This document shows, one piece after another, positions 8,722-32,194 of a stretch of 64,000 nt of DNA. Source of the DNA: Planctomycetaceae bacterium (GTDB lineage Bacteria > Planctomycetota > UBA1135 > GCA-002686595); contig WGMC01000010.1 in assembly GCA_016125265.1 (NCBI GenBank), positions 1-64,000 of the forward strand. The letters run 5' to 3'. Every line of letters starts with the position of its first letter. Position 1 is the first letter of the stretch. Both the position numbers and the translations under genes were made by a program. Under the pieces are notes generated by a model. That model did not search any database. It was given only the letters and a program-made list of their open reading frames with translations, and was not told the origin of the DNA.

Positions 8722-9123
8722 ATGCGTACGAACCGCCTCCTCGCCATCGCCAGCTCCCTGCTCCTCGTCGCCGGTTCCAGTTCCTGCGTGGCCGTGGCCG
8801 TGGGCGCGGGTCTCGGCTTCATGGTCAGCCAGGAGTTCACCAACAACCAGAAGTTGGTCTATCGCTACAACCTCGATGTCGAGGACGTCTGGGCGACCGC
8901 CCAAGCCGTGATGAACGACATCTGCGAAGGCCCGCCGGAAGTTGTCGAGTTCCCGCGCACGCTCAAGGGCACGTACATGAGCGCCGACGTCACCATGACC
9001 GTCATCGCCCATGACCACCTGCAGACGGACGTGACCATCGAGGCCCGCGAGTACGGCTCGCGCTCGGGCCTCACCTCGAAGCGTGTGCACGAGTTGCTCG
9101 AAGAGCGACTCGCGCAGCGTTGA
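8722..9123 (+). CDS. small DUF3568-like exported lipoprotein
   Basis: A 133-residue protein with a basic N-terminus and hydrophobic signal (LLAIASSLLLVAGSSSC, Cys22), followed by a glycine/alanine-rich hydrophobic stretch (VAVAVGAGLGF) and a small alpha/beta domain (LVYRYNLDVEDVWATAQAVMNDI, then TLKGTYMSADVTMTVIAHD and DVTIEAREYGSRSGLTSKRVHELLEERL). This layout matches DUF3568/SH3-like small lipoproteins of unknown function. The lipobox is weak (SSSC), so a simple secreted form is possible. It stands alone, downstream of purQ, and converges on the Fur gene across a repeat region. Confidence 0.75.
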   Translation: MRTNRLLAIASSLLLVAGSSSCVAVAVGAGLGFMVSQEFTNNQKLVYRYNLDVEDVWATAQAVMNDICEGPPEVVEFPRTLKGTYMSADVTMTVIAHDHLQTDVTIEAREYGSRSGLTSKRVHELLEERLAQR

Positions 9124-9237
9124 TCCGCAGGGGCGCGGGATCGACGAGCGAACCGGATTCCTGAAGGCCCGTTCCAACGATCGACGAATCGATCGACGAT
9201 CCGCCAGACGGCACAGTCCGGGTGCGCAGAATGGAGC

Positions 9238-9297
9238 GGGCTTTCAGCCCTTGCCTCCTTCTCACGGGGAACCTGGGGCGTTGTCCCAGGCTACGAT
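9238..9297. repeat. left inverted repeat bounding the array
   Basis: From GGGCTTTCAGCCC at 9238-9250 to CTACGAT at 9291-9297. Its reverse complement matches 9929-9987: 25 of the first 26 bases are shared, then a diverged middle of about 15 bases, then GGCAAGGGCTGAA-x-GCCC. Inside is the hairpin CCTGGGGC-GTT-GTCCCAGG (9272-9290). Confidence 0.8.
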
Positions 9298-9714
9298 CGA
9301 GCGCGCCGTTGGCGCTCCGCCGCGGATCCGATCGAACACGACGTTGGCGCTTCGCCGCGGATACGGTCGAACACGACATTGGCGCTTCGACGACGCGACG
9401 AACGAACGGGGCGTTGGCGCTTCACCGCGGATACGATCGAGCGCGCCGTTGGCGGTTCGCCGCGGCTGCGATCGAACGCGCCGTTGGCGCTTCGCCGCGT
9501 CTGCGAACGAACACGACATTGGCGCTTCGACGACGCTACGAACGAACGCGCCGTTGGCGCTTCACGGCGGATACGATCGAGCGCGCGATTGGCGGTTCGC
9601 CGCGGATACGATCGAACGTGCCGTTGTCGCTTCGACGACGCGACGAACGAACGGGGCGTTGGCGCTTCGACGAGGCTGCGATCGAACGCGCCGTTGGCGC
9701 TGTAGAAGACTCTA
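9295..9714 (+). repeat. twelve-unit tandem array, 35-bp period
   Basis: Units begin at 9295, 9330, 9365, 9400, 9435, 9470, 9505, 9540, 9575, 9610, 9645 and 9680; each is 35 bp with no spacer, the last diverging at its end. Each starts with GATCGA or GAACGA and has the core TTGGCGCTTCG (variants exist). Canonical units contain GCGCC-GTT-GGCGC, a 5-bp stem with a three-base loop. Two sub-types alternate irregularly: one ending CCGCGGATAC, the other CGACGCGAC/CGACGCTAC. The period is not a multiple of three, so a coding repeat is unlikely. Confidence 0.9.
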
Positions 9715-9780
9715 CGATGCGCAACGCATCGAACCAACGCACGGCAACCATCCGTCGCGCCGTTGGCGCTCCCAACGACG

Positions 9781-9880
9781 GCGCAACGCGCATCGCGCCA
9801 AGGTCGGCGCAACGCGCATCGCGCCAAGGTCGGTGCAACGCGCAATGCGCCGAGGTCGGCGCGACGCGCAGCGCAGTTGC
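9781..9880 (+). repeat. 26-bp tandem repeat, about 3.8 units
   Basis: Units at 9781-9806, 9807-9832 (identical), 9833-9858 (few changes) and a partial diverged copy at 9859-9880. The unit begins GCGCAACGCGCATCGCGCC and ends AAGGTCG. It lies inside the same pair of inverted repeats as the 35-bp array but has a different unit. Confidence 0.85.
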
Positions 9881-9928
9881 ATCCTCTCACCGACGAACGG
9901 CCGTCCGAAAGGGGCAACGCCCCGGCCT

Positions 9929-9987
9929 ATCGTAGCCTGGGGCAACGCCCCAGGTATTGCGGTAGCACCGGCAAGGGCTGAAGGCCC
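9929..9987. repeat. right inverted repeat bounding the array
   Basis: From ATCGTAGCCTGGGG at 9929 to GGGCTGAAGGCCC at 9987, the inverted partner of 9238-9297. It includes a perfect 8-bp stem with a three-base loop, CCTGGGGC-AAC-GCCCCAGG (9936-9954). Directly upstream a second similar hairpin, GGGGC-AAC-GCCCC, sits at 9911-9923. Confidence 0.8.
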
Positions 9988-10041
9988 GGCCCATCCCGCA
10001 GGCCGCGCCAGTTCGTCGGAAGGCCGTCACTCGGTCGACAA

Positions 10042-10602
10042 CTACGGCGCGCCGCTGGCGGGACCGCGCGCGCGGCGGCCGCGGCCCGCGGCGCGCGCGG
10101 AACCCTTGACCCGCGGTGCGGCGCGGCGCTGGGGTGAGAGCGCGGCGCCGGGCTCGTCCGCGCGCTTCTTCGCGCAGGCGCGGCAGTATCCGAGGAGCCG
10201 CAGGTCGTGGTCGACCAGTTCGAACCCCTTCTTCTGGGCCGCTTCGCGCTGAAGCGTCTCGATGCGCTCGTCGTAGAACTCGTCGATGCGGCCGCAAGAG
10301 AGGCACACCAAGTGGTCGTGGTGTCGGTGGCCCAGGACGTGTTCGTAGTAGAGCTCGCCGCGCCCTGCGTCGAGCGACTCGAGGAACCGCCCCTCGACCA
10401 GGAGCGAAAGCGTCCGGTAGACGGTGGCGCGGGATACCGGCGCGCCCTCCTCGGCCTCGAGCCAGCGGTACAAGGTCTCCGCCGTGAAGTGCTCGTGGGT
10501 CGCGAACGCGCGGTCGAAGATGCGCTCGCGCTGGTTGGTGAACTTGAGGGCCCGCCCCCGCAGGAACGTCTCGAAGGCCTTGCGAAGGTTGGATTGGTTC
10601 AC
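10042..10602 (-). CDS. Fur-family metal-dependent transcriptional repressor
   Basis: A metal-sensing winged-helix repressor (Fur/Zur/PerR family). The DNA-binding domain holds LKFTNQRERIFDRAF and the recognition region GAPVSRATVYRTLSLLVEGRF; the dimerisation domain holds the regulatory metal ligands in YYEHVLGHRHHDHLVC and the two structural zinc pairs CLSC and CRAC. A basic, Ala/Arg/Pro-rich tail of about 35 residues follows the second pair and is unusual. GTG at 10602 matches the normal family N-terminus (186 residues); an upstream ATG at 10650, preceded by a GGGGGA run, would add 16 Arg-rich residues. It follows purD on the same strand after about 150 bp. The metal specificity cannot be told from sequence alone. 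Confidence 0.93.
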   Translation of the reverse strand: MNQSNLRKAFETFLRGRALKFTNQRERIFDRAFATHEHFTAETLYRWLEAEEGAPVSRATVYRTLSLLVEGRFLESLDAGRGELYYEHVLGHRHHDHLVCLSCGRIDEFYDERIETLQREAAQKKGFELVDHDLRLLGYCRACAKKRADEPGAALSPQRRAAPRVKGSARAAGRGRRARGPASGAP

Positions 10603-10754
10603 GGGTAGGGACGCGCGTCGGGCTCCGGGAGCCCTGCGTCGCGCCAGCATCGGCCGGTCCCCCGCCCGGTGCAAGCGCTTCCCGGAGCTAAGCACGGCCG
10701 AAGCGGCGCGATTGGCCCCGAGCGGGCCGAAACCTCCACCGCCAGCGGATCGGC

Positions 10755-30271: not shown

Positions 30272-30410
30272 GGGTGCCGCTCAGGGTACCCAACCGGCCC
30301 GCGGCGGCGAATGCTGCCGACGGGCGGCGGCGTGCCGGTCGACGGCTTCGGACCTGCTGGTATCCTCCGTCGCCCGGGGAGCTGCGCAAAGGGGCACCCG
30401 GGCCTTCCCC

Positions 30411-30505
30411 ACGCACACAGCTCGCCCCCACGCACACAGCTCGCCCCCACGCACACAGCCCGCCCCCACGCACACAGCTCGCCCCCAAGTACACGGCTCG
30501 CCCCC
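30411..30505 (+). repeat. five 19-bp tandem repeats abutting a start codon
   Basis: Units of ACGCACACAGCTCGCCCCC at 30411-30429, 30430-30448, 30449-30467 (one change), 30468-30486 and 30487-30505 (AAGTACACGG variant). The next three bases are the ATG of the GGDEF/EAL gene, so the last CCCCC takes the place of a ribosome-binding site. The 19-bp period rules out a simple in-frame coding repeat. Copy-number change would alter the distance between promoter and start. Confidence 0.92.
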
Positions 30506-32194
30506 ATGACCCCCGCCCCCGGCGATTCCCCGGCCCAACCCGACCCGATCCGTGTGCTCCTCGTCGAGGACCACCTGGGCGACGTGGAACTCCTCATCGC
30601 ACTTCTCGCGAGCCGCGGCGCTCCCCGGGTCGACTTGACGCCCGTGCGCACCGTCGCGGACGCACAGCGGGCGCTCCTGGACGCCGAGTTCGACGTCCTC
30701 TTGCTCGACCTGGACCTGCCCGACGCAAGCGGCCTCGCGGGTCTGATGCGCCTGTGCGCGTCGTCGCCCCTCGTGCCCATCGTCGTGCTCACGGGTGTCG
30801 ACGACGCGGAACTGGCCCGGCGGGCCCTCGCGCGCGGCGCCCAGGACTACCTTTCGAAACACAACCTCACGCGCGAGGGCCTGGTGCGGGCGCTCAGCTA
30901 CGCGATCCAACGCCAGCGTGTGAAGGCCGAACTCGAGTCCGTGTCGGACCAGTTGCGCGAGGCCAACTCGCGCCTCGCCAAGCTGGCGCTGATCGACCCC
31001 CTGACGGACCTGCTCAACCGCCGCGGTCTGCAGCAGGTTCTGACGCGCGAGATCCACTGGGCGCGCCGGGATGGTTCGGAGCTGATCGTTTTCCTGATCG
31101 ACCTCGACGACTTCAAGCGGATCAACGACGGGCTGGGGCACGCGGTCGGCGACGTGGTGTTGCAGGGCATCGCCGGCGCCCTGCGCGAATCGCTGCGCAC
31201 CACGGACTACGTGGCGCGGATCGGCGGGGACGAGTTCCTCGTGTTGCTGCCGCAGACGCGACTCGCGGAGGGGATGAAAGTCGCGGAAAAGGTGCGCCGC
31301 TCCGTGGCCGGATCGTTGGTAGCGCTCGGGGAGCGCTCCGTAGGTGTCACCGCCAGCGTCGGCGTGGTCCAGGTGGCACACCCCACCGCCTCGATCGACG
31401 AGTTGCTCCGCCAGTGCCAGATGGAACTGCAATCGAGCAAACGGGCGGGCAAGAACCGGGTCAGCGCCAGCGGCGGTGCAACGGTCGAACAAGCGTCCCA
31501 GCACGAGGAATTGGAGCGCCTCTGGCGCAGCAACGGTTTCCGCGCCGTGCGCCAACCGGTGGTCGAACTGGCGACGGGCCGGCGAGTTGGTTACGAGTTC
31601 CTCTCGCGTGCGCTGTCGGAGGACCTCGGGCAGCCGGCGGACTTCTTCCGCCAGAGCTACGAGTCCAACATGCTGACGCTGGTGGACCACCACTGCTTCG
31701 AACTGGGGCTCAGCGCCGCCGCGGAACTGCCGCGCGACCAGGATGCGCACCTCAACCTGTTCCCCTCCACGATGATCGACGTGCCGGCCGAGCACCTGCT
31801 CGACGGCGCCGGCCGCGCCCTGGAACCGGCGCGCCTTTGCATCGAGATCAGCGAAAGCCAGATCATCGGGGATCCGTCGTACCTGTCGGCGCCCGTCGCC
31901 GCCCTGCGCCGCCACGGTGTGCGCATCGCCATCGACGACGTGGGTTTCGGCCGCAGTTCCCTCGAGAGCCTGATGATGCTCGAACCCGACATCATCAAGA
32001 TCGACCGGCGCCGGGTCCACGGAGTCTCCCAGTGCCGCGACCAGCAGCGTTCGCTCGAGCGGCTGCTGCGGGTCGCCGCCAGCCTGGAGGCGGGGGTCGT
32101 GGCCGAGGGCATCGAAACCGAAGAAGATCTCGCCACCCTGGTCGACATGGGTGTTGCCCTCGGACAGGGTTATCTGCTCGGGCGACCCAACTGA
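30506..32194 (+). CDS. response regulator with REC, GGDEF and EAL domains
   Basis: A 562-residue cyclic-di-GMP signalling protein. REC domain (about 16-135) with phospho-acceptor Asp68 in LLLDLDLPD; coiled linker 135-160; GGDEF domain (about 160-325) with an intact GGDEF at 240-244 and an inhibitory I-site RTTD at 231-234, five residues upstream; EAL-type domain (about 340-562) with DDVG at 477-480, IKIDR, VVAEGIETEEDL and GQGYLLGRP. The signature EAL itself reads EFL (364-366). Diguanylate cyclase activity is likely; phosphodiesterase activity is uncertain. No partner kinase is adjacent. Confidence 0.94.
   Translation: MTPAPGDSPAQPDPIRVLLVEDHLGDVELLIALLASRGAPRVDLTPVRTVADAQRALLDAEFDVLLLDLDLPDASGLAGLMRLCASSPLVPIVVLTGVDDAELARRALARGAQDYLSKHNLTREGLVRALSYAIQRQRVKAELESVSDQLREANSRLAKLALIDPLTDLLNRRGLQQVLTREIHWARRDGSELIVFLIDLDDFKRINDGLGHAVGDVVLQGIAGALRESLRTTDYVARIGGDEFLVLLPQTRLAEGMKVAEKVRRSVAGSLVALGERSVGVTASVGVVQVAHPTASIDELLRQCQMELQSSKRAGKNRVSASGGATVEQASQHEELERLWRSNGFRAVRQPVVELATGRRVGYEFLSRALSEDLGQPADFFRQSYESNMLTLVDHHCFELGLSAAAELPRDQDAHLNLFPSTMIDVPAEHLLDGAGRALEPARLCIEISESQIIGDPSYLSAPVAALRRHGVRIAIDDVGFGRSSLESLMMLEPDIIKIDRRRVHGVSQCRDQQRSLERLLRVAASLEAGVVAEGIETEEDLATLVDMGVALGQGYLLGRPN

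Follow-up and report, generated by a model that had tools for sequence, protein, structure and literature searches.

Between two convergent genes of a planctomycete genome, the window (the whole 64,000-nt stretch of DNA that was analysed) carries tandem repeats enclosed by inverted repeats, which raises the question of what kind of element this locus is and where its repeats came from. The sequence-only reading had described a bounded element at 9238-9987 holding 35-bp tandem units and a separate 26-bp array. TRF recovered both arrays, and the inverted repeats bracketing them proved real as well, with arms of 46 nt (9271-9316 and 9910-9955) and 30 nt (9226-9255 and 9970-9999) that are each 83% complementary. 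The locus is bounded as proposed, but its limits are wider: the drop of conservation across end modules, for which 82 isolated modules were used, sets the edges at 9231 and 9994. The first 35-bp unit, taken as distinct from the left repeat, is not, since it starts in the CTAC tag of that end and holds its third hairpin. The flanking genes do converge, and a CRISPR was rightly set aside, the units abutting with no unique spacers between repeats. Gene cargo was set aside too: what ORFs the element contains look mechanical and repetitive. The features are as follows.

8722-9123, plus strand: upstream flanking ORF with a lipoprotein-like signal sequence, without Pfam match
9231-9994: whole element (A-end, interior and B-end), 764 bp, edges ATGG../..CCAT
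9231-9316, minus strand: A-end module, read on this strand as H3, GTAG, H1, H2, edge; consensus of 135 modules; RF01687 30.4 bits at 9272-9316
9238-9250: hairpin H2 of the A-end, GGGCTTTCAGCCC
9272-9290: hairpin H1 of the A-end (the REP palindrome), CCTGGGGCGTTGTCCCAGG
9291-9294, minus strand: CTAC, the GTAG tag of the A-end, towards the interior; tag strongly conserved across modules
9292-9701: array of 35 bp x 11.7 copies, 78% match, higher-order period 140 bp; unit 1 starts within the CTAC tag and includes H3
9303-9315: A-type hairpin H3, GCGCCGTTGGCGC
9772-9874: array of 26 bp x 4 copies
9906-9994, plus strand: B-end module (H3, GTAG, H1, H2, edge); RF01687 36.6 bits, E 2e-6, at 9910-9954 on the minus strand
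9911-9923: B-type hairpin H3, GGGGCAACGCCCC
9932-9954, plus strand: REP core of the B-end, GTAG tag plus H1 (GTAGCCTGGGGCAACGCCCCAGG)
9975-9987: hairpin H2 of the B-end, GGGCTGAAGGCCC
10042-10608, minus strand: downstream flanking gene, Fur family regulator (PF01475, 105.9 bits)

Each element end is a module of about 110 nt composed of hairpin H3, a GTAG tag, hairpin H1, hairpin H2 and a sharp edge ..CCAT. Across 135 modules the order is H3, GAT(C/A), GTAG, H1 (CCTGGGGCAACGCCCCAGG), 20-21 nt, H2 (GGGCTGAARGCCC) and G(C/G)(T/C)CCAT, with the C-C-A-T of the edge conserved at 99/99/99/91% and the next position at 46%. GTAG-tagged hairpins are a hallmark of REP sequences, and the features of a GTAG REP were all found here: a palindrome flanked by an unpaired GTAG, on one side only, many copies, extragenic location and linkage to a Y1 transposase gene that has the same REP around it. 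The ends are of two types: A has GCGCCAACGGCGC as H3, mid AA and outer GC, and B has GGGGCAACGCCCC as H3 (found in no paper by a literature search), mid CC and outer GG. In the window element the GTAG tags point inward and the 640-bp interior is private to the copy. The H3 palindrome is retained with at most 2 mismatches in 9 of the 12 units of the 35-bp array, which is a run of the H3 segment of its own A-end. A short way upstream, the sequence at 9161-9176 (CTGAAGGCCCGTTCCA) shares 14/16 bases with 9978-9993; it looks like a B-end H2 edge that has decayed, and is possibly a relic of an earlier tandem copy.

The locus is not alone: a small palindromic element linked to a transposase is scattered through the genome in roughly ninety copies, and the window array belongs to one of them. 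The GTAG-H1 core GTAGCCTGGGGCNNNGCCCCAGGT, searched as GTAG-CCTGGGGC-NNN-GCCCCAGG-T, gave 186 exact matches (89+97) in its own 5.1-Mb genome, far more than chance would give, as a reversed control pattern had 0. BLAST of the window locus matched the element ends on many contigs of this genome, and in 30 relatives it returned, among the ten candidate regions scored per genome, mostly Fur gene matches and a few short fragments of the repeat core. The exact pattern was absent from 80 sampled members of the same taxonomic family, and among 392 genomes of the phylum it was present in the own genome alone; a GTDB scan located the core in named records of Planctomycetota, Verrucomicrobia, Lentisphaerae, Chlamydiae and Acidobacteria (Granulicella, Edaphobacter); those genomes in which copies were counted held 2 to 36 each. 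Since 186 copies here stand against none in the 80 family members and 2 to 36 elsewhere, the REP family has expanded in its own lineage, and its origin would lie in horizontal acquisition.

Elements were surveyed in detail on ten contigs (1.92 Mb) of the own genome, plus other loci. By a crude gene caller the copies are almost all intergenic, and about 13 of 29 lie between convergent genes against 205 of 1060 gene pairs, a figure that is approximate because the same caller mis-called the window's own Fur gene. Two unlinked copies (C37:163369-163814 and C6:19253-19698) are 96% identical over 446 bp with different outer flanks, and the near-identical stretch begins within 2 nt of the edge of a GTAG-inward element. 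The family is MITE-like in being dispersed and non-coding, with inverted ends and precise edges; target-site duplications above control were not found at element boundaries, where direct repeats did not surpass those of the best controls made by re-pairing, in keeping with the earlier remark that none was visible. Such duplications are not expected for the IS200-type class of transposase. Many contigs terminate inside elements (e.g. C4:4, C8:59150, C12:131456, C30:234408 and C43:136012), on which the assembly therefore probably broke, so that true copy number and array lengths are possibly larger. At a contig end, C27:139682-140067 is a perfect fold-back round an element, in which 30/30 flanking bases are inverted and which probably arose in assembly; insertion into host palindromes was rejected because its sole striking case, the perfect inverted flanks of C27:139682-140013, is this fold-back.

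A dispersed non-autonomous element with repeat cargo was among the proposals of the sequence-only reading, to be abandoned if repeat pair and array never recurred together; inverted ends with an internal array were found together at dozens of places. The repeats were also to be sought in the rest of the genome: the ends do recur, but the array differs in nearly every copy. A recombination or condensation site, offered as another possibility, found no support.

No transposase lies by the array, as had been noted, but an IS200-type gene lies between two element copies elsewhere in the genome. It is one of two Y1_Tnp genes, on contigs C27 and C3. The C27 gene encodes a 150-aa protein that passes the IS200/IS605 TnpA models (NF033573, 61.1 bits, cut-off 55; PF01797, 75.2 bits), fails the RAYT model NF047646 (15.8 bits, cut-off 80) and has the transposases 2xm3, 2xma and 2fyx as its nearest solved relatives. 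The C3 transposase (C3:21684-21911, L002) reaches 70.2 of 80 bits with the RAYT model and has no adjacent REP element, the nearest being about 6 kb away. Homologues of the C27 protein, up to 64% identical, occur in 10 of 12 other core-bearing genomes, and a search of the 80 family members gave one weak match. At L227, L228, L230 and L236 the homologue has a REP core on both sides with GTAG outward, and at L230 both flanking cores have a changed stem (CCCAGGGC/GCCCTGGG) that still forms the palindrome; no core was found near the other homologues (L229, L231-L235). The occurrence of the homologue in core-bearing genomes and the cores flanking it at these loci thus link core and transposase family, also in several distant genomes of PVC bacteria and Acidobacteria. 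Dispersal and transposase link are well supported, and we hold the element family and this link to be highly probable.

In published work on TnpA-REP the enzyme recognises GTAG and hairpin (PMC8266576). By analogy, the C27 TnpA may move the elements, in which case it would bind the GTAG-H1 hairpin in single-stranded DNA, nick beside it and mobilise the element. Our best explanation, to which we assign a probability of about 0.78, is that the locus belongs to a lineage-specific family of small mobile elements, non-autonomous, with GTAG REPs at their ends and private arrays inside, and with the C27 TnpA as likeliest mobiliser. Counting against it are the failure of the C27 protein with the RAYT model, the second Y1 transposase on C3, the array-free REPs of OFTM151 and the position of GTAG inside the common unit. 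Neither a transposition event nor an empty site was seen, the genomes compared including no close relative.

GTAG-inward pairs enclose interiors of 105-663 bp, in which 50.3% of bases lie in tandem arrays compared with 1.0% in stretches of equal length drawn at random from this genome. Arrays are present in 40/54 interiors against 0-6/54 across twenty control draws, and strong arrays (score >=150) in 22 of 54 against 0-2 in controls. In the 1.92 Mb, 26 of 75 strong arrays fall in element interiors, which amount to 0.56% of the sequence, and 12 more lie at most 700 bp from a core. The shortest array period is 6 bp, the longest 59 bp and the most common 17 bp; unit and period vary between copies, and most units are private to one copy. 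Elsewhere in the window a 19-bp x 5.3 tandem array (30407-30506, CCCCACGCACACAGCTCGC) has its nearest REP core 20 kb off and shows no link.

According to the mechanism we propose, each copy would grow its own minisatellite between the inward GTAG tags by repeated local duplication, and the duplicated segment would sometimes be the end's own third hairpin. An H3-like palindrome occurs in 11/40 array units, the window array included, against 0.4% of shuffled units. The favoured trigger would be nicking or hairpin-stalled replication beside the GTAG, and a role for TnpA in the birth of arrays is put forward tentatively. The arrays could equally be passive, with hairpin-rich non-coding DNA between inverted ends slipping in replication and the transposase having no part, a possibility that comes close to even odds; slippage and a transposase role are in our view about equally likely. 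The identity of units within arrays, about 60% to 100%, fits continuous slippage, and the H3 hairpins present in many array units favour it. In OFTM151, which has both the REP and a related transposase, 0/44 REPs have an array on either side, so REP and transposase are insufficient for array growth. However, slippage alone leaves unexplained why, within 200 nt of a REP, arrays cover 46% of the sequence next to the GTAG but 7.8% at the opposite flank, which is just as rich in hairpins. A few records from other genomes have arrays beside the GTAG in 7/42 REPs and on the opposite side in 1/42.

The mobile unit might instead be an ordinary REPIN, with GTAG outside, about 120-bp spacing and a conserved centre, the GTAG-inside pairs being by-products, either DNA between tandem REPINs or derivatives of circular intermediates; we consider this unlikely. 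REP mobilisation, as described in the literature, is believed to involve GTAG-outside pairs (REPINs), whereas the common unit in this genome has GTAG inside. Among GTAG-inward (TT) pairs 52/54 are A/B hetero-pairs, in both orientations. Head-to-tail copies share a conserved 17-nt link and so form GTAG-outside (HH) pairs of about 120 bp, 25 of which exist in the sampled DNA, most with the conserved 17-nt centre, and these favour the REPIN as unit. So do the transposase units, which are HH, and other genomes, where the same REP occurs mostly in HH pairs; OFTM151 has the core in ordinary GTAG-outside pairs, 21 among its 44 REPs. In earlier work HH spacers were likewise conserved and TT spacers variable, and a circle-origin model was cited for both (Di Nocera et al. 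2013, PMC3733652). In the sampled contigs, however, exactly one isolated GTAG-inward pair ([<>]) makes up 11/41 clusters and a lone HH pair 2/41. Lone half elements ([<) occur there near contig ends only, which argues against the REPIN as the unit, and the near-identical C37/C6 copies start at a TT edge. Other planctomycete records have the same core head-to-tail (L122:5784-6156, L115:4109-4217, neighbouring cores in L297-L308 of G469), and in two planctomycete records tandem arrays of 54-69 bp units contain the REP itself, a third arrangement beside inward and outward pairs.

The end module also matches the Rfam family RF01687 (Acido-Lenti-1), whose 46-nt consensus, H1-CUA-spacer-H3, shares its layout. 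The window ends score 36.6 and 30.4 bits, under the covariance-model cut-off of 37, and sister copies in the own genome score up to 44.9 bits; this genome has at least 129 matches, often over the cut-off. RF01687 gave 0 matches in 14 control genomes and one weak match, in one genome, among the 80 family members. Acido-Lenti-1 has been rated 'probably' RNA and not cis-regulatory (Weinberg 2010, PMC2864571). That the element acts as RNA, a possibility also raised by the sequence-only reading, either as this small RNA or as a structure that serves the 3' ends of two convergent genes in both directions, would agree with the match at both window ends, with the convergent flanks of about 13/29 copies given above and with the fold of the whole element as RNA, which is far better than that of shuffles (z -9.2). 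We nevertheless regard it as improbable, as the window matches stay under the cut-off and DNA mobility accounts for the dispersal, the pairing of inverted ends, their GTAG tags and the link to a transposase; scans of the element for sites resembling a terminator or a sigma70 promoter gave none, although they are hardly informative here.

Inverted RF01687 matches bracket IS200-type genes at L230 (1401-1445 and 2010-2054) and L237 (1300-1344 and 2030-2074), and the C27 transposase gene is bracketed likewise. The pattern suggests that the RF01687 'sRNA' is the end of a transposable element, and we propose that the covariation on which the RNA call rests stems from hairpins that a transposase recognises in single-stranded DNA. 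A 2026 paper, which states that 'little is known' of Acido-Lenti-1, reported that two Tannerella protease genes have its motifs downstream, and found no mobile element (PMC13298647); these motifs may themselves mark one. Within the 26-bp array, weak Rfam matches to MIR7486 and Twister-sister fell far under the cut-off and were judged chance. Finally, that short-read assembly collapsed or invented the repeats is scarcely credible, for although many of the 48 contigs end in elements and the C27 contig terminates in a perfect fold-back, dozens of copies sit far from any contig end, have unique sequence to either side and carry arrays that differ.

How REP elements, which are common repeats in bacteria, spread is still poorly understood, and we know of no general mechanism for the birth of bacterial minisatellites. 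About ninety element copies that share a tag, and mostly carry different arrays next to it, amount to a natural experiment on satellite birth. It is conceivable, if short of even odds, that REP-bounded elements serve as minisatellite nurseries through HUH nicking beside the GTAG, and that Acido-Lenti-1 across Acidobacteria, Lentisphaerae and others is a DNA end and not a small RNA. The end match lends this Rfam family a testable identity, and, if it is true, pipelines that annotate such ends as small RNAs need correction.

Earlier work already describes GTAG REPs, REPINs and transposases linked to REPs (PMC3733652, PMC3116915); our literature search found no report of REP elements carrying copy-private minisatellites or of Acido-Lenti-1 as a transposon end, and dispersed non-coding satellite families were rare in a survey of prokaryotic satellites (PMC6749651). 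With GTAG REPs (Di Nocera et al. 2013, PMC3733652) the element shares a GTAG directly 5' of a palindrome with a 3-nt loop, high copy number, an intergenic and often convergent setting, and the link to an IS200-type tyrosine transposase gene. It differs in its three-hairpin end modules of two distinct types and in its GTAG-inward pairs, which lie 105-663 bp apart around copy-specific minisatellites, whereas GTAG REPs mostly have 20-100 bp spacers; Di Nocera et al. noted that GTAG-inside pairs tend to variable spacers and did not detail association with other repeats (PMC3733652). Like REPINs (Bertels and Rainey 2011, PMC3116915), it consists of inverted REP pairs that spread as units and form tandem clusters that include flanking DNA, but a REPIN has GTAG at its outer ends and a short conserved hairpin spacer, and the window element is reversed, with a long repetitive interior. 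Acido-Lenti-1 is filed as an sRNA, whereas here inverted pairs of the motif mark the ends of elements and flank transposase genes. The C27 protein shares with IS200/IS605 transposases a single Y1 domain, the HUH motif, hairpin ends and the lack of target duplication; unlike theirs, its gene sits amid roughly ninety non-autonomous copies with inverted ends, and its activity is predicted from sequence. The group to which the Drosophila element DINE belongs uses an HUH enzyme as well. DINE, a non-autonomous Helitron, has central tandem repeats (PMC9659126). It is eukaryotic and its ends are unrelated, so the likeness is one of analogy only: both are families of non-autonomous transposons that carry, and seed, satellite arrays at their centre.
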